A stretch of 46,215 nucleotides of DNA from Bacteroidia bacterium (GTDB lineage: Bacteria; Bacteroidota; Bacteroidia; Bacteroidales; UBA932): positions 1 through 46,215 of the forward strand of contig JAUNNZ010000016.1 of assembly GCA_030537315.1 (NCBI GenBank), written 5' to 3'. The position numbers and the translations under genes are program-made. The notes beneath the pieces were generated by a model. It had not been told where the DNA came from, did no database searches, and saw only the letters and a list, made by a program, of their open reading frames with translations. Positions 20,483-40,693 of this stretch are shown here, in pieces. Numbering within the stretch: position 1 is the first letter of the stretch; every line of letters starts with the position of its first letter.

Positions 20483-20485
20483 GCA

Positions 20486-21544
20486 TCATTGCCCGAGCGT
20501 CTTGCTGTAGTGGCAGTTGAGCACCTCCGAGCAGTCTCCGTGCCAGTTGTGCATCCCGTTGCCGAGACACCTGTCGAAGACCTTGCAGTCGGCGCACCGG
20601 CCCCTGCGGGCCCAACTGCGGTCGCGGAACTGCCCGAACCTGCCGTTCCACACCTCCCAGAGATTGTCCTTGTAGATGTTGCCCTGGGCAAAGACCTCCC
20701 GGTCTATGTTGGGGCAGGCGCAGATCGTGCCGTCGATCAGCACGGATGCGATGTTGATGCCTGCGCGGCAGAAATATGGCTCCAGGCGTGCCTTCTGTTC
20801 GTATTTTCCCAGATAGCCTTCGCAGCTGAAGGTAACGTTCATCCTTGACGGATGCTCGCGCTTTGACTTTATGAATTCCATCAAAGACCTGGTCTCATCG
20901 GCGTCCAGATGCATCATGGGATCGTCTTTCGCCCGTCCGATCGGTATGATGGTGAAAAGGCGCCACTGCTTCACACCAAGGCCAAGCAGGGTGTCGTGTA
21001 TATCCTGAAGCTGGCTGAGATTGCGTTTCGTCACACAGGTGACGACGTCGAAGTTGATCTTCCGTTCACCCGCCGCTATCCTTATCCCGTTCAGCGCCCT
21101 GCGGTAGCTGCCCTCGCGGCCGCGCATCCAGTCGTGAGAATCCTCCATGCCGTCCAGACTGATGGTCAGCGAGCCCATTCCGCCCCTCATCAGCCTGCTG
21201 TGCATCTGCTCGTCATAGAAGAAGCCGTTGCTGACCATTCCCCAGCGCAGACCGCGCTGGCGGATGGCCTTGCCGATTTCCTCGATATCGGGGCGAAGGA
21301 GAGGCTCTCCACCAGTGATGGCGACCGTGAAATTGTCAGGACGCTCTGAAACAGGAATAGTGTCTACGGCCCTGAGGAAATCCTCCAGAGGCATATCCAC
21401 TTCCCTGGATGCCGCAAAACAGTCACTGCCGCAGTGGCGGCAGTGCAGATTGCATCGGGTCGTACATTCCCAGAAGAGATAATTCAGCTCGTGAAGCCTG
21501 GTTTCGCTTCTGCGGAACGCTTTGAAGAAGAGCCAGGGAATCAT
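20486..21544 (-). CDS. Radical SAM/SPASM maturase of an rSAM/lipoprotein pair
   Basis: 352 aa. The radical SAM cluster motif is C31-NLH-C35-RH-C38, with an additional C27, followed by the ITGGEPLL SAM-binding motif. The C-terminal SPASM region is Cys-rich (about residues 250-345: C in FCRAG, CACPN, CADCK, CLGNG, DCSEV and NCHY), enough for two auxiliary [4Fe-4S] clusters. Such enzymes modify peptides. Its start overlaps the stop of the 61-aa lipoprotein gene (ATGA), and it fits my memory of the Bacteroidota rSAM/lipoprotein family, so that lipoprotein is the likely substrate. The chemistry is unknown. The N-terminus MIPWLFFKAF is hydrophobic. Confidence 0.85.
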   Translation of the reverse strand: MIPWLFFKAFRRSETRLHELNYLFWECTTRCNLHCRHCGSDCFAASREVDMPLEDFLRAVDTIPVSERPDNFTVAITGGEPLLRPDIEEIGKAIRQRGLRWGMVSNGFFYDEQMHSRLMRGGMGSLTISLDGMEDSHDWMRGREGSYRRALNGIRIAAGERKINFDVVTCVTKRNLSQLQDIHDTLLGLGVKQWRLFTIIPIGRAKDDPMMHLDADETRSLMEFIKSKREHPSRMNVTFSCEGYLGKYEQKARLEPYFCRAGINIASVLIDGTICACPNIDREVFAQGNIYKDNLWEVWNGRFGQFRDRSWARRGRCADCKVFDRCLGNGMHNWHGDCSEVLNCHYSKTLGQ

Positions 21545-21726
21545 TGTCCCGGTTCCTCAGATTCAAGTTCCACGTCAAGCGACGTGCTGTCAGCCATTTC
21601 GGACGTGGTTTCCGGTTCTGGTACCGGATCCGTATAACCCGGAGGCATCCCGTAGCAGGCCTGGAAGACGAAGAGCGCCGTGGACAGAGACGTGCACTTC
21701 AATAGATTGCGGATCTTTTTTTTCAT
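21541..21726 (-). CDS. Small lipoprotein, probable radical SAM substrate
   Basis: 61 aa. A basic n-region (MKKKIRN) and hydrophobic core lead to a lipobox LFVFQA-C24, followed by YGMPPG. The mature part is only 37 residues, Pro- and Glu-rich and acidic (VPEPETT, ELESEEPGQ). The CYGxPP start right after the lipidated Cys resembles the radical-SAM-associated putative lipoprotein family as I recall it, though this copy seems short. It lies 1 nt after the esterase stop and overlaps the radical SAM start by 4 nt, so all three genes are translationally linked. Confidence 0.75.
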   Translation of the reverse strand: MKKKIRNLLKCTSLSTALFVFQACYGMPPGYTDPVPEPETTSEMADSTSLDVELESEEPGQ

Positions 21727-21727
21727 A

Positions 21728-24418
21728 TCAATAGAAAATGGTGTTGAAGAAATCCTCCATCTGGCGTGCGTACGGCGCGCCGAACTTTATGAAAGCCTCC
21801 TTGGTCGCGGAATCAGACTTCCAGTCGTAGTATGCGTGTACTGCGCCCGGAACCTGGATGTTGTATGCGACCTGGCCCGCATCGAGCAGCGCGCGGTAGT
21901 ATTCCGCAGTGCTTTCTTCGGAGATGATAGGGTCAAGCGTGCCGCGGTTGATCCAATGAGGGATCTGGCGGACGGAAGCGTCGGGGATGTGGCATATAGG
22001 GGCAAGCGCCTCGGCGGCGGCAGTGTCTTCCGCCCCCGTGAAACGGGCCATGGTGCCCGCGTCGAAGATGCCGTAGTTCGGTGCAACCGCCTTGATGGCC
22101 AGCAGGCTCCTGCGGGCCTTCCTGATGCTCCAGCCCTTCGGCATATAGGTTGGCATATATTCATATACTCCAGGCTTGACGCCGAATCCCCGGTCGCCGA
22201 CCATCTCGACCATATTCGCGACTGCCGCGCAGAGGTGACCGCCGGCGCTGTCGCCGGTGACGGCCAGACGCCCCGCGTCAAGTCCGTACTCCGAGGCGTG
22301 CTCCTGGATGTGCAGGATGGCGCCGTAGCAGTCGCCGATGATGTCGGCGATGCTGTTGGGTTCAGCGTCGCCGTCAGCATTCCCTGCCCATCTGTAGTCG
22401 ATGCTGAACACGACGTACCTGCCGTCGGCGACAAGCTCGCGGGCGAGCCCCTTCATCACGTTCTGGCAGTTCATCCTCCAGCCGCCGCCGTGGATGATGA
22501 CTATGCCCGGGAGACCCTTCGCGCCGTCGGGGATGTATGCGTCATAACGGAGTTCCTTGACTCCCGGCTTGGCATATACTATGTCGTGCAGGCAGGTGTA
22601 ACCCTGCAGCCTCTCAGGCTCCACGAAGGATGCTCCTATAGTACAGTTCCAGCCGAGCTTGACGTCGAACTCCTGCGTATAGTACTCGTGATAGAAGCCG
22701 AACTGGACGCCAAGAGCGTCATAGCCGCACTCGAATTCATAACCCGGGTCAGCGGTCGCCTTGACGTGGAAGACGGTGCCGGCGGGGAATTCCGCGGCCT
22801 CGGGGCCGATTTCAGGTGTGACCTCGACACTGCCGTGGGTGCATTCTCCGAGAGCGGCCTTGAAGTATTCCGTATGCTCTGCCCTGAACTTGTCAAGCTG
22901 TTCGAAGCAATGCCTGTTCTGGATATCCTGAAGCGCTCTGTCTGGGTTGTTGCGTATGCGGCATTCATAGTCGAATACCATCATTTCACCGTTGTCGGCG
23001 GTATAAGTGTGCCATTCCGGAAGGCCTTCGGCGTTAGGGTTGCCCGTGCGGGCAAAGTTTGACCATGAGAGGCTCATGATGTCAGCGAGGGCCTGGTCGG
23101 CCTCTGTCGGTTCCGGAAGTTCGTTCAGTCCGTGGTCAAGCGTGTTGAAGCAGAACTTGAGCTCGTGCCCGTGGACGGACCCGCCGTTGACCGGAGACTT
23201 CCATGTGAACATGTACTGATAGACAGGGGCTTTCCAGTTTTCTGAAAGCCAGTCGCTTGTAATCACGGTCTTCGGACGGAACAGGCGGTCGACAGAAAGG
23301 AGGTCGGCAGGGGAGTATGACGGATATGCGTCGGCAAATGCGGCTATGTATGCGTCGGTCTCGTCTCCGAATATCTGCCTGAGCTGGGCCTTGGCCTCGT
23401 CCATTGTCGGATTCTGGTCGTAGCAGAGCCGCTGGAGTTCGTTGAAGGTGGTGCCTATCATAAGTGGCTTGCCTGTGGAGAAATCGGCGAAACCCGGCTG
23501 GAAAGGCTGCTGGAGCAGTACTTCGCCGTCAGGGGTAGGGCCGAAGCCCCACATCATAGGGGTTCCCGGCGCGCGGGTGCCTATGCTTTTCGCCATGGCC
23601 CTCTGGCCGGCGGCGTAAAGCTCTTTGTAAGGTACATCGTTGATGCGTGATATCTCTTCCACAGGGATGCCCAGCTCATCAAGGACGGCCTTTCCGAGGG
23701 CCTGGGACATTTTCCTGTCGTTGACGTTGAGTATGGTGCCGCTCATTATGATGGCCTTGTGGAACAGGTCTTTCGCCTCTGGCATGCAGAGGAGCGTGCC
23801 TACCTTGCCGCCGCCACCGGATTCGCCGAAGACGGTGATGTTGTCAGGGTCGCCGCCGAATTTGGAGATGTTGTCGCGCACCCACTTGAGGGCTGCGATG
23901 ACGTCCATCATTCCGACGTTGCCGGAATATCTGTATTCTGGAGAACAGGCCGACAGGTCGAGGAAACCCATTATGTTCAGGCGGTGGTTGACGCTGACGA
24001 CAACCACGTCATCCTCGCGCGCGAGTCCCATTCCGGGATTCCATTCAGAAGTGCCGGAATCGAAGCCGCCTCCGTGAAGCCAGAACATCACAGGCTTTTT
24101 TGCCTTGACGTCGGTTGTCCAGACATTCAGGACGGTGCAGTTCTCGGACATTTCGTCTTCGGTGAGCTCGCGGCCCCATACGTTCTGCATGGCCTGCGGG
24201 CCCCAGTGGTCGCATACGCGCACGCCTTCCCATTCCGGTGCCGGCTGAGGAGGCATGAAACGTGTCACGGATGCGTAAGGGATGCCAAGGAAGGCATACG
24301 TGCCTTCCTGTTCAATACCCTGGACGATACCTCCGGCAGTCTTGACAACAAGTGGATTTTCAGTGCAGGAACACAGCGCGAACAGGGCTGAAACAAGAGA
24401 AATGACAAGTTTCTTCAT
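21728..24418 (-). CDS. Lipoprotein with two esterase domains (type-B carboxylesterase + alpha/beta hydrolase)
   Basis: 896 aa from the ATG at 24418, chosen because it opens with a signal peptide and lipobox (MKKLVISLVSALFALCSC); an in-frame ATG 48 nt upstream lies in the promoter. The N-terminal part (about 20-485) is a type-B carboxylesterase: HGGGF oxyanion loop, nucleophile Ser in GESGGGG, catalytic His in VHGHEL. The middle (about 500-590) looks like a small beta-repeat domain (HGSVEVTPEIG, ATADPGYEF). The C-terminal part (about 595-896) is a second alpha/beta hydrolase: HGGGW, GDSAGGH, Asp in GTLDP, His in GAVHAYYDW. Both active sites look intact. Substrate unknown; possibly acylated glycans. 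First gene of the unit leading to the lipoprotein and radical SAM enzyme. Confidence 0.88.
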   Translation of the reverse strand: MKKLVISLVSALFALCSCTENPLVVKTAGGIVQGIEQEGTYAFLGIPYASVTRFMPPQPAPEWEGVRVCDHWGPQAMQNVWGRELTEDEMSENCTVLNVWTTDVKAKKPVMFWLHGGGFDSGTSEWNPGMGLAREDDVVVVSVNHRLNIMGFLDLSACSPEYRYSGNVGMMDVIAALKWVRDNISKFGGDPDNITVFGESGGGGKVGTLLCMPEAKDLFHKAIIMSGTILNVNDRKMSQALGKAVLDELGIPVEEISRINDVPYKELYAAGQRAMAKSIGTRAPGTPMMWGFGPTPDGEVLLQQPFQPGFADFSTGKPLMIGTTFNELQRLCYDQNPTMDEAKAQLRQIFGDETDAYIAAFADAYPSYSPADLLSVDRLFRPKTVITSDWLSENWKAPVYQYMFTWKSPVNGGSVHGHELKFCFNTLDHGLNELPEPTEADQALADIMSLSWSNFARTGNPNAEGLPEWHTYTADNGEMMVFDYECRIRNNPDRALQDIQNRHCFEQLDKFRAEHTEYFKAALGECTHGSVEVTPEIGPEAAEFPAGTVFHVKATADPGYEFECGYDALGVQFGFYHEYYTQEFDVKLGWNCTIGASFVEPERLQGYTCLHDIVYAKPGVKELRYDAYIPDGAKGLPGIVIIHGGGWRMNCQNVMKGLARELVADGRYVVFSIDYRWAGNADGDAEPNSIADIIGDCYGAILHIQEHASEYGLDAGRLAVTGDSAGGHLCAAVANMVEMVGDRGFGVKPGVYEYMPTYMPKGWSIRKARRSLLAIKAVAPNYGIFDAGTMARFTGAEDTAAAEALAPICHIPDASVRQIPHWINRGTLDPIISEESTAEYYRALLDAGQVAYNIQVPGAVHAYYDWKSDSATKEAFIKFGAPYARQMEDFFNTIFY

Positions 24419-24479: not shown

Positions 24480-27400
24480 ATGAAACTTGCCTGGAAATTG
24501 TCCGTCCTGCTTGCGCTGACACTAGTCCAAATACCTCTTTTCAGTCAGAATTTCTCTTTCATGGAGCTGTCACCGTCCGACGGCTTCCCATCTAAAATCA
24601 ATACCATCTTCGTGGAGCAGGATGGCTTCGCCTGGATCGGGTCCGACGATGGCGTCTATCAGATATATGCAAACAACTACTTCAGCCATCATGTCCCTGA
24701 CGGGGAATTCCTGTCAAGCAGCAATGTAACCAGGATTTACTTCGACGAAACGGGTACGGCATGGATGCTCACCGATGTGGGCTTCTATGGATTCCTGTCA
24801 AGCATCCACCACGACCATCCTCAGATGATACTCGGCATTGACGGAAAGACGGTGGCGCACAGCGTGGTTTCAAAAGGCAAGGACGTCTATTTCGGCGGTG
24901 ACAACATTGTATGGAAGTACAGCCATGAGACGGGAGCGTTCACGGAGCTGTTGAAGCTTGACCCGTCAAAGCCTTTTACCGTGAACCAACTGCTCATAGG
25001 CTACGGCAACGGAGGCAATGACCTCATCATGGTCAGCGACTTCACCAGAGAGATGGCCATATACAACATCGCGACGAAAGAATGCCGCCCGTCCCAGTTC
25101 AAGGGCGGCAACGATTTCTTCGCGGCGTTCACGGGTTCCGACGGAACACTGTGGATTTCAATGCTCGGACAGGGCATCTTCAATATCGCCGCCGACGGCA
25201 CTATGCTGAAGAGCTTCAGCACGAAGAACTCCGGGATAAACTCCGACGTCATCATCTGTTTCGCGGAGCGCGAAGGCAAGCTGTGGCTTGGTACTGACGG
25301 AGGCGGAATCAATATCCTGGATCCGGAGACAGGTGAGGTGACAATCCTCAAGAATGATCCTGCGGATCCGTCCACATGCCCGTCAAACATGATTTCCACG
25401 ATGTTCTGCGACCACAACGGCAACGTCTGGTGCGGCCGTCCTTCAGGAGGCGCGTTCGTGGTATCGGAATCAAAGATAAAGCAATTCAAGAACGGTGTCT
25501 TCGACCCGCCTGTCGACAACAGGGGAATATGCTCTTTCTACCAGCTCCCCGGCGACCAGATGGTATGGATAGGCACCAACGGTTCCGGACTCGTCAGCTA
25601 TGACCTGAATACAGGAGAGTTCTTTTCATATCCGGTTACGGACAACATGCACATCCACTCGATAGCATCCATGTCGAACGGCGATCTTGTGCTGTCCTGC
25701 CCGAATCAGGGCATATTCGTCTTCAATCCGAAGACAAACGAGATGCGCAGGAACTCCTATGACCTCGAGGCTAAACTTTTCTATTTCTCGACCGACCGCA
25801 GTCCCGTATTCTGCAATGACCAGAGCGATAACGTAATCATTTTCACGGACCGTCTCTCACGCTACTATCCATCAGGCGCATTCGACCAGTTCCCACAAGT
25901 GGAGGGCGTAAAGGGCTACCTGCGCCCGGTGTGCGGCTCTCACGCCCAATATATGATTGACGATGCCTCTCTGTACCGCTGGGAGGAGACGTCGCCTACC
26001 AAGACGCGCAGGATCCTGGACATGTCTTCAAAAGGCCGTGTGCGATGCGCTACCTTTGCTGAAGACGGTTCGATATGGATCTCCGCCGGTTCATCCATAT
26101 ACAGTTATGACACCGTGACAGGGGAAGTGGAGTACGTCTTTGATTCTTTCGAGACCGAGCCGCATATGATGATGACCGCGGATGACGGCCGGCTGTGGAT
26201 GGGTACCAGAAACAAGCTCTATGTCTATAATCCGGCCACCAAGGGCGTTCTGCTTCTTGGGGAGACAGATGGAGTGTTCAACAATGAATATCTGTCGGGA
26301 GCCTGCCTGCAGGCCTCCAACGGAGAACTGTTCCTCGGCGGGCGCAACGGCTTCATCTGCGTCGGCCGCGACTTTGAAGTCAACACTGTAAGGAACGTGG
26401 GAATCACGGTCGGCGCTGTCCTGGTCGACAATGACGAGATATTTGACCTTTCCGGTTTTGCCGTTCCTTATCATCACAGCCAGATCGATATCCGTATGCT
26501 TGTCCGTTCCAATGACATACTCAAGGACAAGCTGTATCACGTGGTGGCATCAGGACCTAGCCTTGATTTCGACGAGTACCTGACCGAACCCGTAGTCCAT
26601 TTCCTCAGACTCAATCCGGGCAAATATTCCGTGTCGATGTCAGTCACCACCTCGGATGGCGGCATGACCGATATGCGTGAGGTGTATTCATTCAGCGTGA
26701 AGAGGCCTTGGTACAGGTCCGCCTGGTTCTATCTGGCGGCATCCCTGCTGCTGCTGTGCGCTCTGCTCCTTCTCATGAGATATCGCGGAAGGATCAAGGA
26801 CAAACGGCATGCGCAGGAGGCTTCCGACGAACGGTACAACTTCCTGATCAACGTGGCTCACGAACTGCGTACTCCGTTGACACTGGTTCAGGGTCCTGTC
26901 AAGCGTATGCTGCGGGATAAGTCGATATCTGCTGAGCAGCGGAGTTCTCTGAACAGAGTGTTCCAGCAGTCTTCCCGCATTTCAGACCTTCTGAACACGG
27001 TCCTCACATCCAGCAGGATAGAGGATGGCGCCACAAAGGTGAATCTCCAGTCAGTTGATGTCAATTCCTGGGTCACCAACCTGGCGGAAGACTTCCGCGA
27101 CGAGGCGGCAGAGCACGATATGGGCATCTCGCTGAAACTTGACCCTACGATAGGCGCCGCCATGATGGATGAAGGGCTTTGCGCCATCGTGTTCTCCAAC
27201 ATCATGTCCAATGCGCTCAAGCACAATCCTCCGGGAAAGGATATCGTGGTGTGGACCAGCTGGAACAGGGAGAAGGGGATGATAAGGGTTGGAATCCGCG
27301 ACAACGGTCCGGGAATCGGCAGGACTGACCCGTCAAAGCTTTTCGAGAAGTATTACAAGGAAACGGAGGAGCACGCAGGTTTCGGCATAGGTCTTTCGTA

Positions 27401-27944
27401 TGCAAAGGTGATCATCGACGCTCATGGCGGCTCGATCACAGCGAACAACAACGAGGACGACAAGGGCGCGACCTTCTGGTTCGAAATCCCTGCCGACCAT
27501 GAAGCGATAAAGACAACTGAGCAGATAATCAAGCAGATAGATGAACGCGCCGAGAAGATCTCCGAGAAGGCGATGATCGACAAATGCATCCTCTATGTGG
27601 ATGACAATATCGACCTGCGCGAATACATAATGGAAGAGCTTGGCCCTCTGTGCCGCAAGCTGATCACGGCAAACAACGGAAAGACTGCGATCAAGGCCAT
27701 TCAGAGCCACGACGTCGATGTTGTCATCACAGATATAATGATGCCAGAGATCGACGGTATCACCCTCTGCAAGACAATCAAGTTCAGCGACCACTTCAAG
27801 CATATCCCTGTAATCCTTCTTACGGCGAAGGCGGATCTTGAAACGATGAACCTTGGACGGGAAGTCAGGGCGGACGCGTTTATCCCGAAGCCTTTCGAGA
27901 TAGAGGAGCTGATCGATGCCGTCAAGGGCAAACGGAAGAAATAA
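24480..27944 (+). CDS. Hybrid two-component sensor kinase without AraC output domain
   Basis: 1154 aa from the ATG at 24480, which begins a clear signal peptide (MKLAWKLSVLLALTLVQIPLFSQ); the frame is open further upstream but overlaps the divergent esterase. Periplasmic Reg_prop propeller repeats (FVEQDGFAWIGSDDG, AEREGKLWLGTDGGGI, MTADDGRLWMGTRN) are followed by a Y_Y_Y-like domain, a membrane helix near 745-765, HisKA with H794 in NVAHELRTP, HATPase (NALKHN, DNGPGIG, GFGIGLSY) and a receiver from about 1036 with phospho-acceptor D1085 (ITDIMMPE). The protein stops about 70 residues after D1085, with no HTH_18 domain. Family members usually sense glycans and activate nearby genes directly; this one would need a partner. 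Confidence 0.9.
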   Translation: MKLAWKLSVLLALTLVQIPLFSQNFSFMELSPSDGFPSKINTIFVEQDGFAWIGSDDGVYQIYANNYFSHHVPDGEFLSSSNVTRIYFDETGTAWMLTDVGFYGFLSSIHHDHPQMILGIDGKTVAHSVVSKGKDVYFGGDNIVWKYSHETGAFTELLKLDPSKPFTVNQLLIGYGNGGNDLIMVSDFTREMAIYNIATKECRPSQFKGGNDFFAAFTGSDGTLWISMLGQGIFNIAADGTMLKSFSTKNSGINSDVIICFAEREGKLWLGTDGGGINILDPETGEVTILKNDPADPSTCPSNMISTMFCDHNGNVWCGRPSGGAFVVSESKIKQFKNGVFDPPVDNRGICSFYQLPGDQMVWIGTNGSGLVSYDLNTGEFFSYPVTDNMHIHSIASMSNGDLVLSCPNQGIFVFNPKTNEMRRNSYDLEAKLFYFSTDRSPVFCNDQSDNVIIFTDRLSRYYPSGAFDQFPQVEGVKGYLRPVCGSHAQYMIDDASLYRWEETSPTKTRRILDMSSKGRVRCATFAEDGSIWISAGSSIYSYDTVTGEVEYVFDSFETEPHMMMTADDGRLWMGTRNKLYVYNPATKGVLLLGETDGVFNNEYLSGACLQASNGELFLGGRNGFICVGRDFEVNTVRNVGITVGAVLVDNDEIFDLSGFAVPYHHSQIDIRMLVRSNDILKDKLYHVVASGPSLDFDEYLTEPVVHFLRLNPGKYSVSMSVTTSDGGMTDMREVYSFSVKRPWYRSAWFYLAASLLLLCALLLLMRYRGRIKDKRHAQEASDERYNFLINVAHELRTPLTLVQGPVKRMLRDKSISAEQRSSLNRVFQQSSRISDLLNTVLTSSRIEDGATKVNLQSVDVNSWVTNLAEDFRDEAAEHDMGISLKLDPTIGAAMMDEGLCAIVFSNIMSNALKHNPPGKDIVVWTSWNREKGMIRVGIRDNGPGIGRTDPSKLFEKYYKETEEHAGFGIGLSYAKVIIDAHGGSITANNNEDDKGATFWFEIPADHEAIKTTEQIIKQIDERAEKISEKAMIDKCILYVDDNIDLREYIMEELGPLCRKLITANNGKTAIKAIQSHDVDVVITDIMMPEIDGITLCKTIKFSDHFKHIPVILLTAKADLETMNLGREVRADAFIPKPFEIEELIDAVKGKRKK

Positions 27945-27989
27945 AAAAGATGAACGGACGCGAGTCACTCGCGTCCGTTCATCTTTTTT
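27943..27989. terminator. Bidirectional palindromic terminator, copy 1
   Basis: Perfect inverted repeat with 23-nt arms around a single central base, flanked by A6 and T6, between the convergent sensor-kinase and GH43 genes. It works as an intrinsic terminator on both strands. The core ACGCGAGT-c-ACTCGCGT recurs at 42890-42914. Confidence 0.85.
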
Positions 27990-27991
27990 GT

Positions 27992-30091
27992 CTATTTGTT
28001 TTCTATCGTCACCACTATCTTTCCCTTTTCCTTGCCCGGGATGATCTTCATCATCAGGTTGCCGGTGACTTCCGTGCCGGTGCCGAGGCGTGTCAGGAAG
28101 GCTTCTACGGTAGGCTTTGGATTCTTCTTGTCCGAGATGAGTTCCTTATCCGTAAGTTCTCCGGACCAGAGGACAGGGCCGTATGAGTGGTTGAGAACCC
28201 ACATCCCCGGGTCGATGTCTTCGAATACATATTCGGTCACTCCTTCCTTGAGCATAAGGATCTTGGTGTCCTGGTTCTGGCGGTATGCGCCAGGTGCGAA
28301 GTTGCGGGTGCGCTTTGCGACCTGGATTTCAGCGCCGCTGCCGAGTGTCGCAAGATATGGCTCGCGGTAGTAGTCAAGACCGCAGTCGAATGCCTCGACC
28401 TCGAAGTAATATTCAGGCGCGGTGTTCAGGCTGTGCATGTATAGGGTGGTCTTGTCATAGACGATGTAGCTGTTGTACAGCTTGCCCGGTTCGATGCCGT
28501 AGCGGACTACATAGCCGTCAGCTCCCGGGACCGCATCCCAGAGAAGATTGGCCTCGCGCCTGTCTTCAGGATTGCGGACAACCTTTACGTCCTTGACGAT
28601 GGTGCGGCTCATCTTGTCGGTGGTGCCGAATACGCGGAGGTCCTTGATGCTGAACTTGGCGTCATCGTAGGTGGCGACGTTGGTTACCTTTATATATCTT
28701 GCCTTCTGTGCCTTTTCAAGCTCGTTGTAGTCGTGCTTGAGCTCAAGCTTGTTGTTGCTCTTGTCGATGACCTTTGTCCAATGTTTCTTGTCCTTTGAGA
28801 TTTCCACGGTGTAGCACTGATAGTGGTCAGGGTAGGAGGCAGGGGCGCCGAAGCCGGCGGGAGCCTGAGGCGCTGCACCGATGTGGTCCCAGTTGAGCTG
28901 TATGGCGTTGATCTCTGCGAGACCGCCGAGGTCGAGCAGGAAGAATTCTCCCGGGTCGCCCGTGGCTGCCGTCCAGCAGGTGAGGAAGTTCTCGTCCAGG
29001 GCTTTGTCATAGGTGTAGTTTTCAAACGTTGAGGATACCTCCGCATATTTGCCGTTCGAGAGGAGCATCCAGTCGGTATAGTTGCCGACGCCGCCCTCAG
29101 GACGGAGGTCAGGATAGTACTGCGGATAGTCGCCGAGGGCGGTGTTGGAGTACATCACACCTTCCGCGTCAACGGCTGAAGGGTAGATGGCCAGTTCGGA
29201 GCCGCGGCCTGTGCCGCCGTACTGTGACGGAATCATGCAGATGGTCCAGAGGTTGCCCTTCTTGTCGTGGAAGGTGCTGCCGTGGCCGGCGCCTACCTGG
29301 AAGCCGCTGGTCTTGAAGGTCAGAGGGTTGTGCTCGGAATAGGTGAACGGGCCGGTAGGGCTGTCGGATACGTAGATTCCGTGTGAGTATGAGATGAACT
29401 CGAGGCCGATAGCCGCATATTCGAGATAGTATTTGCCGTTGTGCTTGATCATATAAGGACCTTCGATCCATGGAAGTTCCTCAGGATTGTACTCGCGGCG
29501 GCCGTTGAATATCGAATAGATCACGTCCTCGGGCTTGCGGACCTCGAATCCGTGGTTCTTGATATCGCTGAAGAACAGCGGAATGGGCTCATGCAGTTCC
29601 TTATATGTGACGGGGTCGAGCTCCACGACCTGGAACGGCATGATCTGAGACCATCCGAAATACAGATACACGCGGCCGTCGTCATCCACGAAGAGGTTGG
29701 CGTCGCCGTACCTGTCGCTGCTCAGTTCCCCGCATTTCTCCCAAACGCCTTTCTTTGGGTCGAGGCACTTGTAAACGTTCTTGTTGTTCATGGAGCAGCC
29801 GATCAGCTGGCCGTTCTGTTCTACGACAGATACAACTCCTCCAGGGTAGTTTGGAGCATCGACATAGGTCCAGTTTCTGAAATCAGGGGAGTACCAGTAG
29901 CCTTTGCGGTGGGAGACGAACAGATAATAATCGTCCTGGAAAATGATTACGACCGGCTCTCCACCTCTGTATGCGCGTTCGTTTCCGATAAGCACGTCAA
30001 GAGGATTGGCGAAGGTCTTGCTGGTGTTCTGGGCTGCGGCTGCGCCTGCAAACAGCGCGCACGCCGCAATGATGATCAGGAATTTCTTCAT
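27992..30091 (-). CDS. Secreted GH43-like glycoside hydrolase with F5/8 and Fn3-like modules
   Basis: 699 aa from the ATG at 30091, which opens a signal peptide (MKKFLIIIAACALFAGAAAAQ). The catalytic five-bladed propeller (about 30-360) has GH43-style motifs: an early blade ending YYLFVSHRKGYWYSPDFRNW, a D in YGDANLFVDDDGRVYLYFG, an acidic residue in WIEGPYMIKHNGKYYL, and GHGSTFHDKKGNLW. A discoidin-like carbohydrate-binding module follows (about 410-545: DENFLTCWTA, ARYIKV), then an Fn3-like domain (about 555-620). Likely acts on arabinose- or xylose-containing glycans; subfamily cannot be set by eye. It converges on the sensor kinase across the terminator. Confidence 0.85.
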   Translation of the reverse strand: MKKFLIIIAACALFAGAAAAQNTSKTFANPLDVLIGNERAYRGGEPVVIIFQDDYYLFVSHRKGYWYSPDFRNWTYVDAPNYPGGVVSVVEQNGQLIGCSMNNKNVYKCLDPKKGVWEKCGELSSDRYGDANLFVDDDGRVYLYFGWSQIMPFQVVELDPVTYKELHEPIPLFFSDIKNHGFEVRKPEDVIYSIFNGRREYNPEELPWIEGPYMIKHNGKYYLEYAAIGLEFISYSHGIYVSDSPTGPFTYSEHNPLTFKTSGFQVGAGHGSTFHDKKGNLWTICMIPSQYGGTGRGSELAIYPSAVDAEGVMYSNTALGDYPQYYPDLRPEGGVGNYTDWMLLSNGKYAEVSSTFENYTYDKALDENFLTCWTAATGDPGEFFLLDLGGLAEINAIQLNWDHIGAAPQAPAGFGAPASYPDHYQCYTVEISKDKKHWTKVIDKSNNKLELKHDYNELEKAQKARYIKVTNVATYDDAKFSIKDLRVFGTTDKMSRTIVKDVKVVRNPEDRREANLLWDAVPGADGYVVRYGIEPGKLYNSYIVYDKTTLYMHSLNTAPEYYFEVEAFDCGLDYYREPYLATLGSGAEIQVAKRTRNFAPGAYRQNQDTKILMLKEGVTEYVFEDIDPGMWVLNHSYGPVLWSGELTDKELISDKKNPKPTVEAFLTRLGTGTEVTGNLMMKIIPGKEKGKIVVTIENK

Positions 30092-30131
30092 TTTGGTGTT
30101 ATTAATTGACAGTATGTTGCGATTGGTTTCG

Positions 30132-30139
30132 GAAAGATA
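30132..30139 (-). promoter_or_regulatory. Candidate -7 element for the GH43 gene
   Basis: Minus-strand TATCTTTC has one mismatch to TAnnTTTG and lies about 40 nt upstream of the start codon. No convincing -33 element. Confidence 0.4.
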
Positions 30140-30166
30140 GCAATAATTTGCCATTTTCTCTCCGTC

Positions 30167-30187
30167 CCTTCGGCAAAATGCCGAAGG
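30167..30187 (-). terminator. Hairpin downstream of the MATE gene
   Basis: CCTTCGGC-aaaat-GCCGAAGG, a perfect 8-bp stem with 5-nt loop, 17 nt after the MATE stop codon. There is no strong T-run, so termination strength is uncertain. The same CCTTCGGC stem occurs in the hairpin upstream of the MATE gene. Confidence 0.5.
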
Positions 30188-30204
30188 CAGATGAAATCCG
30201 CCCG

Positions 30205-31551
30205 TCAGCTGAGTGGCAGATATCCGTAACGTTTGCCGAAAGCGGCCACAAGAATGAATGAAAGGACGAATGCGCATAATTCAGCGACATTGACCGCACT
30301 CCAGATGCCGTCGACGCCGAAGAATGCAGGCAGGAGGAAAACACACCCGAGCTCGAAAATAAGGGTGCGGGCGAATGCTGCGATGGCGGAGACAACTCCG
30401 TTGTTGAGCGCCGTGAACCAGGCGGAAGTGAACATGTTGAACCCGCACAGGAGGAAACTGAGCATGTAGATGCGGAGCGCGCGGACGGTAAGCGAGCAAA
30501 GCGCCACGTCGTAACCGACGAAGAAGCGCGCCACGGGAACGGCGGTTGCCTCTGCGAGTCCGGTCAGAATCAATCCTCCCAGTGATATCAGCACCAGGCT
30601 CTTGCGGAGCAGTGAGCGCATCTCGGCGGTGTTGCCCGCACCATAATTGTAGGAAACGATCTGCGATACGCCTATGTTGTATCCGATGAAGACGGCTGCA
30701 AATACGAATCCCATATACATCAGTATTCCGTATGCCGACACGCCGTCCTCACCCACATATTTCATCAGCTGCAGGTTGTAGCATATGCTGACGATTGCCA
30801 ATGCGACGTTTCCCACATACTCTGACATTCCGTTGCTGCAGGATTTGCCGATATGTCTCCATTCGTTGCTGACATTCCTGACAAAGCGGAGATGCGTCCT
30901 GTTCCGCCTGCTCAAGAACCATATCAGCGGAAACGATCCGCCGACAGACAGTGATATTGCCGTACCCAGTGCCGCTCCCAGCAAGCCCATTCCGAACACA
31001 CAGATGAACAGGGCGTCGAAAATGATGTTGGCCACGCCACAGGCTATGCTTACCGCCGTCCCCATCTCCGGCCTCTCAGCAACCATATAGAAAGGCTGGA
31101 ACATCATCTGAAGAATGAACAAAGGCAGCGAGACTATGACGACACGGCCGTATATCATCGCAAACGGAATCATTTCCCCCTCTGCCCCCAGTGCAACCAC
31201 AAGCGGTCTCATAAAGATGAATCCCAGCGCCGCCATCACGATGCCGGACACCAGTGCAAGGCGCGTGAGCATCGTGAAGATGCGGCAGGCCTTGTCGCTG
31301 TCGCCTTCACCCAGTGTCTTCGACACCAGCGCGCTACCTCCGGTACCTATCATCAGTCCCAGCGCAGCCAGAAGCTGCAATCCGGGCCACACGATATTCA
31401 TCGCCGCGAAAGCGGTGCTGCCTGCAAAATTGGACACGAAAAGCCCGTCGACGATGCTGTAAACGGATGTCACAATCATCATCGCAATGCTCGGCAGCAT
31501 CGTTTTCACGAGCCGCCTGTAGCCGTAATGTCCCTGCAGTTCAATTTTCAT
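30205..31551 (-). CDS. MATE-family efflux transporter
   Basis: 448 aa from the ATG at 31551 (MKIELQGHYGYRRL); an upstream in-frame ATG would precede the promoter. Twelve hydrophobic segments are visible, arranged as two repeats, with the MATE-like opening MLPSIAMMIVTSVYSIVDGLFVSNF and the GTGGSALVSK motif after helix 2, and SYNYGAGN in the second half. It exports organic cations or drugs using Na+ or H+ in characterised members; substrate unknown here. It is flanked on both sides by CTTCGGC hairpins and has its own promoter. Confidence 0.9.
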   Translation of the reverse strand: MKIELQGHYGYRRLVKTMLPSIAMMIVTSVYSIVDGLFVSNFAGSTAFAAMNIVWPGLQLLAALGLMIGTGGSALVSKTLGEGDSDKACRIFTMLTRLALVSGIVMAALGFIFMRPLVVALGAEGEMIPFAMIYGRVVIVSLPLFILQMMFQPFYMVAERPEMGTAVSIACGVANIIFDALFICVFGMGLLGAALGTAISLSVGGSFPLIWFLSRRNRTHLRFVRNVSNEWRHIGKSCSNGMSEYVGNVALAIVSICYNLQLMKYVGEDGVSAYGILMYMGFVFAAVFIGYNIGVSQIVSYNYGAGNTAEMRSLLRKSLVLISLGGLILTGLAEATAVPVARFFVGYDVALCSLTVRALRIYMLSFLLCGFNMFTSAWFTALNNGVVSAIAAFARTLIFELGCVFLLPAFFGVDGIWSAVNVAELCAFVLSFILVAAFGKRYGYLPLS

Positions 31552-39013: not shown

Positions 39014-40693
39014 CTATTTCTTTAAAAAGTAATCATAGAAGGTAGGGAGAAGCAGTTCAGTTTCCTTGGCAAGAGGATTCTGCTCCACATGGATTTCGGA
39101 ATCGCGGCCGATGATGATGGTGCTCCTGTCCGTCTTGTCATATTCAGGGACATCGACACCGTCGATGCTCGGATTGCCGGTGCGGGCGAAATTCACGAGG
39201 ATGTTGCTGAAACGCTTCGTAAGAACCGGATCGTACGGGGCGCCGGGCTTGTATGCGAGGTTGTTGAACGCGTATGTAAGTTCGCAGGCGTGGCAGGCCT
39301 TGATGTATGATTCCTCAGGGAATGATTCCTTGTCATAGCCCTTTCCGAACACGTACATATATGTGCGTCCGCTGCCGCCGGCCTCAGAATGGTTCTGCGC
39401 TATGGTTATGCTTCCAAGACGGAACATATAGTTGTTCATTATCTCTGTGTATTTCCAGATTCCCGGATGTTTTGCATCCCACTCGTCGCTGTCGGGATCG
39501 ATATATTTCATACATTCGTCAATCCTGCGCGCAGTCTCCTTGCCGCCAATCTGTTTGATTTCGTCAACCTTTCCCTGAGCCCAGAGGTAGTAACCGGCGA
39601 GAGGCCCGTCTGTCGTGTTGGATGCGTCGAACTGAAGGTGGGCCCAATATCGCAGCTCATCGGCCACGATGCCTATCATCACGTCAACATCCTTTGATTT
39701 CCCTTCAAGGAGAGCCTTGTAGCCATCGGTAGGGAGTATGCTCCTCTCGTCGCTGCGCATAGGCCAGTTGTTGAATGCGCCGACCTTTGAGTCATATCCT
39801 TCGAAACTCTTGACGCCTGCATCCGTATTCAATCCTTTGAGAAGTTCAGCCTCGGAAAGAGCCATCAGTCCGTCCATATCCTTGCAGCCCGTCGCAGCAA
39901 GAAGCTTTTCCGCCTGACCGTTGGCGGCATAGTTTTCCGGAGTATGCTCCAGATAGATGTCTCCCGACATAGGTATCACCCTGCGGAAAAGTCCTTCAGA
40001 GCCCTTTGCGATAAGATGGCAGCACATAGAGCCGCCTCCTGCTGATTCTCCGAAGATGGTCACGTTGTCCGGGTCGCCGCCGAATGCGCTGATGTTCTTC
40101 TGGATCCAGCGCAGGGCCTGCTGCTGGTCAAGTATTCCCAGGTATGGCGTATCAGGGAACGCCTCGCCGCCCGGAACGTTGCTGAAATCTATGAATCCCA
40201 TAGCGTTGACCCTGTACTCCACAGAAACAAGCACTACGTCCGGGTATTCCGCCGGGAGGTACTTGCCTTCATACAGCGGGTCGATTGTGCCGCCCCAGCC
40301 GTATGAACCGCCGTGGATCCAGACCATAACCGGCCTTCCGGCTTTCATCTCCAGGTCTGTCGTCCACACATTCAGGTAGAGGCAGTCCTCGCTCAGTTCG
40401 CCGTGGCTGGCCGGTTCGCCCTCATCGTATGACTGAAGTCCCGGAACCCTGAACTCCTTGGCTTCGAAAACCTCGTCTGAGGCTTCGACAGGCTGCGGAG
40501 CCTTCCACCTCAATTCGCCTACAGGCGCCTTCGCAAAAGGAATTCCCTTGAACGCAAGGACACCGTTGTCCTCGACGTATCCGACAAAACGGCCGTTTTC
40601 GCATACGGCAACGGGATCGTTCTGCTTCTCCGCACAGGAAAGGGTGAGCAGGCAGAATGCGGAGAATAGTGAAATCAAGTTGATCTTTCTCAT
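39014..40693 (-). CDS. Type-B carboxylesterase lipoprotein
   Basis: 559 aa from the ATG at 40693, preferred over an upstream TTG because it starts the signal peptide (MRKINLISLFSAFCLLTLSC, lipid Cys20) and has a purine-rich GAAGGAAAGAAAG leader. Motifs: GIPFAKAPVGELRWKAP (type-B opening), SEDCLYLNVWT, HGGSYGWGG oxyanion region, nucleophile Ser in FGESAGGGS, catalytic His in CHACELTYAF. Related to the N-terminal half of the double esterase at 21728-24418. Substrate unknown. Followed after 2 nt by the amidohydrolase. Confidence 0.9.
   Translation of the reverse strand: MRKINLISLFSAFCLLTLSCAEKQNDPVAVCENGRFVGYVEDNGVLAFKGIPFAKAPVGELRWKAPQPVEASDEVFEAKEFRVPGLQSYDEGEPASHGELSEDCLYLNVWTTDLEMKAGRPVMVWIHGGSYGWGGTIDPLYEGKYLPAEYPDVVLVSVEYRVNAMGFIDFSNVPGGEAFPDTPYLGILDQQQALRWIQKNISAFGGDPDNVTIFGESAGGGSMCCHLIAKGSEGLFRRVIPMSGDIYLEHTPENYAANGQAEKLLAATGCKDMDGLMALSEAELLKGLNTDAGVKSFEGYDSKVGAFNNWPMRSDERSILPTDGYKALLEGKSKDVDVMIGIVADELRYWAHLQFDASNTTDGPLAGYYLWAQGKVDEIKQIGGKETARRIDECMKYIDPDSDEWDAKHPGIWKYTEIMNNYMFRLGSITIAQNHSEAGGSGRTYMYVFGKGYDKESFPEESYIKACHACELTYAFNNLAYKPGAPYDPVLTKRFSNILVNFARTGNPSIDGVDVPEYDKTDRSTIIIGRDSEIHVEQNPLAKETELLLPTFYDYFLKK

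Follow-up and report, generated by a model that had tools for sequence, protein, structure and literature searches.

Across Bacteroidales, the exported proteins encoded beside radical S-adenosylmethionine (SAM)/SPASM enzymes of the TIGR04133 family have unrelated bodies and share a common X-Tyr-Gly-x-Pro motif. The pair at issue here, the TIGR04133 enzyme P0001 and the small lipoprotein P0002, is encoded in contig JAUNNZ010000016.1 of a gut Bacteroidia bacterium (GCA_030537315.1; Bacteroidales, UBA932), of which positions 1 to 46,215 were analysed as the window and supply the coordinates used below. From sequence comparison there appears to be an even chance that the enzyme is aimed at the X-Tyr-Gly (XYG) of the lipoprotein, perhaps for tyramine excision. 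The XYG motif common to TIGR04133 partners is what is new; the TIGR04133/TIGR04134 pairing was already known as a family, as a preliminary description of this DNA had noted.

In one set of 198 Bacteroidales genomes, TIGR04133 passes its cut-off in 41 genomes and TIGR04134 in 23, all of which fall within the 41. From the 47 TIGR04133 matches over the cut-off, 30 loci were chosen by the enzyme alone, one per genome (L166 and L169 being near-copies), and the nearest upstream lipoprotein-like open reading frame (ORF) was picked regardless of the presence of YG. Such an ORF exists in 26 of the 30 loci, and one of the remaining four (L162) is cut by a contig end. YG is present in 25 of the 26 lipoproteins (7.8 expected from shuffling, with a maximum of 18 in 1000 shuffles) and YGxP in 23 of them (0.4 expected, maximum 4), while the preceding residue X may be E, V, M, K, L, A or C, among other residues. 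At L168 and L175 a downstream exported protein with no lipobox carries AQYG after its signal. A control applying one fixed rule, namely a nearby YGxP ORF of at least 45 aa, recovered 27 of 30 TIGR04133 loci, one of seven NirJ2-like loci and none of nine loci of other SPASM enzymes.

The partners that carry the motif differ widely in the rest of their sequence. They include proteins with a TIGR04134 domain, such as the L113 partner, in which the motif stands ahead of each of two such domains; coiled-coil proteins (L156, L160, L166) with one or two copies of VYGSPE, LYGTPE or VYGPPE; and small lipoproteins of 53-112 aa (L163, L171-L173), among which are versions of 53-58 aa and arrays of three to four lipoproteins (61-112 aa). 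In three such arrays (L163:2584-3787, L167:2565-3311 and L171:463-1481) each short lipoprotein has its own YG, and the whole array precedes a single TIGR04133 gene. A plasmid record of Parabacteroides distasonis (L200) carries the pair as well, with a lipoprotein that reads CEYGSPH. The sharing of the XYG motif by these partners suggests a specific chemistry.

The window pair comprises the following features:

20486..21544, minus strand: radical SAM/SPASM enzyme P0001, family TIGR04133, 352 aa (TIGR04133 score; Pfam Radical_SAM and SPASM)
21431..21454, minus strand: CxxxCxxC of the SAM-binding cluster (C31, C35, C38), inside WECTTRCNLHCRHCGSDC (translation; alignment)
20963..20965, minus strand: Trp194 of P0001 (alignment of 36 + 12 + 8 rows)
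20513..20770, minus strand: SPASM region C259-C344 (Pfam SPASM match at residues 259-321; Cys columns of the alignment)
21541..21726, minus strand: lipoprotein P0002, 61 aa, proposed substrate, a short domain-less form of the CYG lipoproteins (translation; relatives)
21655..21726, minus strand: conserved signal peptide and lipobox FQA-C24 (65 non-redundant sequences)
21640..21657, minus strand: C24-Y25-G26-M27-P28-P29, proposed target X-Y-G-x-P (61 aligned sequences; unrelated partners)
21541..21639, minus strand: acidic tail replacing the immunoglobulin (Ig)/transthyretin-like domain of long forms (DNA comparison with L031)

Comparison of gene neighbourhoods, a step that the preliminary description had proposed, shows that 73 of 81 loci (80 related loci and the window) have, close to the enzyme, an ORF that shares the signal peptide and Cys-Tyr-Gly (CYG). 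Of these, 49 have a long form of 118-139 aa, 21 a short form of 61-74 aa, and three have both. The lipoprotein gene is upstream and codirectional in 58, divergent in 12, downstream in two and convergent in one, which indicates that the pairing survives changes of gene order. The eight loci with no local CYG lipoprotein include two cut by contig ends (L050, L071); in five of the eight genomes a CYG gene lies elsewhere, and the remaining three gave no CYG match, though in one of these a contig end cuts the locus and a short-form-like tail is readable.

The linkage was also approached from the lipoprotein side, by searching 199 genomes of the family with a model that covers the signal and CYG in 31 positions. 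This gave 47 matches (E ≤ 4.8e-9) in 39 genomes, all 39 of which also hold a relative of P0001 (E ≤ 5.4e-108); a 48th, weaker match (G140, 6.8e-4, 14 positions) was dropped. Forty of the 47 lie on the same contig as an enzyme match and at most 1.5 kb from it, partial matches counted, and the other seven are on other contigs. These seven unlinked CYG genes (G052:C2, G102:C65, G187:C240, G158:C5, G119:C23, G097:C1, G129:C1) occur in genomes with a P0001 relative elsewhere, and their products are possibly modified in trans. The earlier proposal, in which the SPASM enzyme has the lipoprotein as its substrate, is supported as likely by this search for lipoproteins lacking the enzyme. That the lipoprotein is instead a partner, scaffold or regulator of an enzyme that modifies another protein or a small molecule would account for the enzymes found away from any such lipoprotein (the eight of 81 loci mentioned above, three of them in genomes that gave no match). 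However, the arrays of three to four lipoproteins per enzyme in L163, L167 and L171, as well as the motif repeats within single proteins (L113, L160 and L166, along with L182, a PlpX-like locus), give the impression of multiple substrates, and we consider a non-substrate role quite improbable.

The lipobox of P0002 is FQAC, with Cys24, and the mature part of 38 residues including this cysteine contains 10 Asp/Glu and no Lys/Arg, in agreement with the C24-YGMPP start and acidic mature part described earlier. P0002 matches no model of NCBIfam or Pfam, and specifically not TIGR04134 (cut-off 39.8 bits), for which there is no match at E ≤ 10 in P0002 and none at E ≤ 0.001 in its genome. P0002 is not a TIGR04134 member; it is a domain-less form of a lipoprotein family that nearly always accompanies a TIGR04133 enzyme. 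In 65 non-redundant sequences the region from -15 to +2 around the Cys is mostly near-invariant, with variation at -12, -8, -6 and -4, and the sequence is variable from +5 onward. C, Y and G are invariant in an alignment of 61 of the CYG sequences found, the window included. The ORF search pattern permitted Y/F/H/W after the Cys and demanded the Gly, so that the latter is partly selected, but searches on the lipobox only gave the same picture. Further, the Tyr and Gly codons vary synonymously across 77 genes (TAC 56, TAT 21; four Gly codons), which indicates that the constraint acts on the protein.

Beyond the motif, matches at E ≤ 1 to TIGR04134 (best 1.7e-8), Big_1 and CarboxypepD_reg were returned by 30, 14 and seven of the 61 aligned members, respectively. 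Scoring loci with both forms as short, and counting gains and losses alike, the long/short state changed at least seven times on a quick tree of the enzymes, with six of these changes forced by supported branches. The nearest kin of the window locus, L031 and L032, carry the long form, and DNA similarity to L031 begins within the lipoprotein gene, spans codons 5-31 of P0002, stops after CYGMPPGY (window 21634) and resumes at the enzyme gene. In view of these repeated changes and the comparison with L031, the domain of the long forms looks dispensable, with the signal peptide and CYG being what stays. Hence, the motif is retained both where the rest of the protein is lost, as here, and where it is replaced, as among the unrelated partners. 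The possibility that P0002 is a frameshifted long form was ruled out: none of the window's other reading frames brings the domain back, and the similarity to L031 simply ends. At three loci (L042:5352-5985, L045:1546-2173, L079:1745-2378) short and long CYG lipoproteins stand in tandem ahead of one enzyme, which suggests that the gene was duplicated and that the domain was then lost.

P0001 belongs to TIGR04133, scoring 466.7 bits against the curated cut-off of 425, in a family that NCBIfam labels only as a hypothetical equivalog. Pfam recognises Radical_SAM and SPASM (PF13186, 1.6e-8) in P0001, and the only match at E ≤ 0.001 in a search of its own genome (1.9 Mb, 82% complete) is the P0001 gene itself. 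The closest named relative is that of Candidatus Cryptobacteroides onthequi (L031), with 90% enzyme identity. In an alignment of 36 TIGR04133, 12 PlpX-like and eight outgroup rows, C31, C35 and C38 are invariant throughout, and seven C-terminal cysteines (241, 259, 277, 317, 320, 326, 344) are invariant in all 36 TIGR04133 rows. Additionally, TIGR04133 has E26, S40, W194 and G243 in common with all 12 PlpX-like rows, and these residues occur in two, two, one and none, respectively, of the eight outgroup rows; Trp194 is invariant in the 36 TIGR04133 and 12 PlpX-like rows alike.

Among the reactions met in the parts of the literature examined, the only one that targets X-Tyr-Gly is the tyramine excision by PlpXY. 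PMC10533398 and PMC11002830 describe PlpXY as removing a tyramine equivalent at XYG to leave a ketoamide; the former gives MYG and LYG as natural PlpX targets and lists among its tags PIRPLYGLPI, with YGxP, and GAVAAGYGVVFPG, where YGxP is absent. A Nostoc plasmid cluster of the PlpX family (annotated as nif11-class maturase 3) has a precursor ending in ALYGLPPELF, and its enzyme gene is followed by one of 71 aa. On the reading proposed here, the pair would consist of a lipoprotein and the peptide-modifying enzyme dedicated to it, and the TIGR04133 enzyme would act in the cytoplasm, before export and lipidation of the lipoprotein. It may recognise X-Tyr-Gly jointly with the signal peptide, which is unusually conserved, and would modify the peptide backbone at Tyr-Gly, perhaps with loss of tyramine. 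In the window clade X is the lipobox Cys24, so that the mature lipoprotein would carry the ketoamide at its lipid anchor. The broader proposition, which we advance only tentatively, is that all TIGR04133 enzymes are spliceases for exported Bacteroidota lipoproteins and form a second branch of backbone splicing that can do without the RiPP (ribosomally synthesized and post-translationally modified peptide) recognition element (RRE) and the RiPP leader.

The motif evidence fixes the site and not the reaction, and the enzyme could work at the lipoprotein Tyr-Gly by another radical chemistry, such as a crosslink of the Tyr side chain, epimerisation or desaturation. Consistent with this, P0001 scores about as well on heme-related and other SPASM families as on TIGR04103, kinship with those families is not rejected, and its SPASM Cys set differs from that of the PlpX-like enzymes. 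However, YGxP is present in PlpX-type precursors too, and the tallies of residues disfavour two specific candidates. A Tyr crosslink to whatever follows Gly does not sit easily with the Gly, Pro, Asp, Thr or Met that occur there, and a thioether requires a nearby Cys, which several partners lack near YG (e.g., those with TKYGIP or AVYGSP), while the sole Cys in the mature part of P0002 is that of the lipobox. We regard such other chemistry as somewhat unlikely.

The preference for PlpX-like backbone chemistry draws in part on a possible kinship of the enzymes. We take TIGR04103 to be the PlpX splicease family and identical to IPR026482. The latter is the accession named in PMC11002830. For four Bacteroidota PlpX-like enzymes TIGR04133 ranks third or fourth among the models, behind TIGR04103 and TIGR03913. 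In three trees with long branches and few outgroups, TIGR04133 falls on the PlpX-like side as against NirJ2, MftC (mycofactocin), TIGR04053 and other rows, with supports of 99/96, 99/98 and 91/96; the second tree omitted L197, L185, L193 and L194, and for the third thirteen more rows were thinned and seven of L205-L216 added (L205-L208, L212, L214, L215). Of separate note, a 214-aa protein with six KYGYP repeats adjoins a PlpX-like enzyme in a Bacteroidales genome (L182:2955-3599), and on an Agathobacter rectalis plasmid (L203) a 71-residue frame with VMYGTGVR, which recalls LYGVGIRE of L178, lies near another.

Several observations weigh against both the aim at XYG and the comparison with PlpX. 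Among the loci, the sole exception in the 26 is L153, whose nearest lipoprotein, ending 110 nt before the codon of the enzyme's first motif Cys, lacks YG; it lies between the enzyme and a YG lipoprotein that is next upstream. No partner was seen at the L164 locus. L214 and L215, sister to TIGR04133 in the third tree, have no YGxP neighbour (0/2) and no lipoprotein by locus scan; their enzymes have HCSC or HCTC where TIGR04133 has HCGS. The PlpX-like loci themselves are only partly of the expected kind: an XYG neighbour judged by eye to be a partner was found in three of nine Bacteroidota loci (L178-L186), namely L178 (LYGVG, PYGVA), L180 (LLYGTPP) and L182 (six KYGYP), and a YGxP ORF in four of 14, one of them probably by chance. 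In the excerpt of PMC10533398 a second splice tag reads GYGVVFP, with no YGxP.

Among the enzymes, the PlpX-like rows were classed by sequence, with none biochemically verified, and P0001 reaches 124.4 / 123.4 bits on TIGR04103, well below the cut-off of 725 and not above its scores on TIGR04053 (130) or AhbD (126). With L214/L215 included, neither a grouping of TIGR04133 with NirJ2/TIGR04053 nor one that joins it to MftC and others could be rejected (p 0.075 and 0.076), which lowers our confidence and leaves the kinship with PlpX-type enzymes suggested, not shown. Gly330 takes the place of the fourth Cys in CX2CX5CX3C, a Cys that each of the 12 PlpX-like rows retains. With this canonical motif incomplete, one auxiliary cluster of P0001 looks standard and complete and the other atypical; the earlier description had seen enough C-terminal Cys for two auxiliary clusters. 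Finally, no RRE partner (PlpY-like) lies beside the enzyme, the locus alone having been searched for one, and no Nif11 or nitrile-hydratase-type RiPP leader is found at the locus, P0002 bearing a lipoprotein signal peptide. Since P0001 falls short of the TIGR04103 cut-off and neither the RRE partner nor the leader was found, the pair is not classed here with the PlpX-family spliceases, though it may act in the same way.

The remaining gene of the three described as a unit is:

21728..24418, minus strand: double-esterase lipoprotein, 896 aa (COesterase and BD-FAE/Abhydrolase_3; Pfam)

The esterase, lipoprotein and radical SAM genes follow one another 5' to 3' in this order, all on the minus strand, with a 1-nt gap at the first junction (TGA-T-ATG) and a 4-nt overlap at the second (ATGA), exactly as had been claimed. 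The other neighbour of the radical SAM gene is a convergent carB-like gene (named by eye), the stop of which (20482) is only three bases (20483-20485) from that of the radical SAM gene. The esterase shows GESGG, GTTFNE and HGHEL in one half and HGGG, GDSAGG, RGTLDP and PGAVH in the other; going by the roles that we presume for these motifs, both halves look catalytically intact, in keeping with the two intact domains described earlier. It had also been suggested that the modified lipoprotein and the esterase work as one surface unit. The 1-nt gap, together with a divergent hybrid two-component system (HTCS) gene upstream and a GH43 gene nearby, makes co-transcription plausible. However, tblastn of both halves against L001-L110 showed no counterpart among the matches listed for the 80 related loci (L031-L110), within flanks of at most 6 kb that a contig end shortens at some loci, and in L031 the DNA similarity starts only inside the lipoprotein gene, with none upstream of it. 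A functional coupling is thus not supported and appears very improbable; the esterase probably does not belong to the enzyme-lipoprotein system. BD-FAE/COesterase domains with HTCS and GH43 read instead as plant-polysaccharide degradation, and the esterase would be a polysaccharide-degrading neighbour. The stretches 24480-30277 and 39014-40693 of the window, with the HTCS, the GH43 and a second COesterase protein, are likely a polysaccharide-degradation neighbourhood.

In a search of PubMed Central literature, which did not cover the splicease list of Scott et al. 2022, neither the accessions TIGR04133 and TIGR04134 nor the phrase "radical SAM-associated putative lipoprotein" was found, and the text of PMC10352776 contains none of "lipoprotein", "TIGR0413" and "splice". 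PMC10533398 cites Scott et al. 2022 (Chem) as the source of 939 predicted splicease systems. With the target motif fixed and a candidate reaction named whose mass loss is defined, the TIGR04133 question can be put to a direct test. If the proposal is true, proteins anchored in the membranes of gut bacteria would join small peptides as substrates of backbone splicing, and surfaces would naturally bear ketoamides as a modification. PMC11117315 calls spliceotide products protease inhibitors, and a protease-trapping or other surface role may be considered for the modified lipoprotein.

In comparison with known systems, the window pair resembles the PlpX-type spliceases in having a radical SAM/SPASM enzyme and partner proteins with X-Y-G, several of them with YGxP, as in CYGMPP of P0002; TIGR04133 also shares E26, S40, W194 and G243 with them and falls on the same side of the trees, though this is not proved. 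Unlike them, the TIGR04133 pair has neither an RRE partner nor a Nif11 or nitrile hydratase leader peptide (NHLP) type leader, its proposed substrate is an exported lipoprotein, its SPASM Cys set is another one, and P0001 scores far under the TIGR04103 cut-off. The GDL-motif radical SAM system (TIGR03913, with DUF1843 peptides), which is near TIGR04103 in profiles and tree, has small partners with PYG or LYG (L178, L199), but these peptides differ from P0002 in having no lipoprotein signal and no x-Pro after YG. There is also a likeness to the TIGR04133/TIGR04134 pair of NCBIfam: P0001 is over the cut-off, the lipoprotein gene is adjacent and TIGR04134 proteins also have YGxP. P0002 departs from that pair in being a 61-aa protein with neither a TIGR04134 match nor the domain, and in having a YG that directly follows the lipidated Cys.

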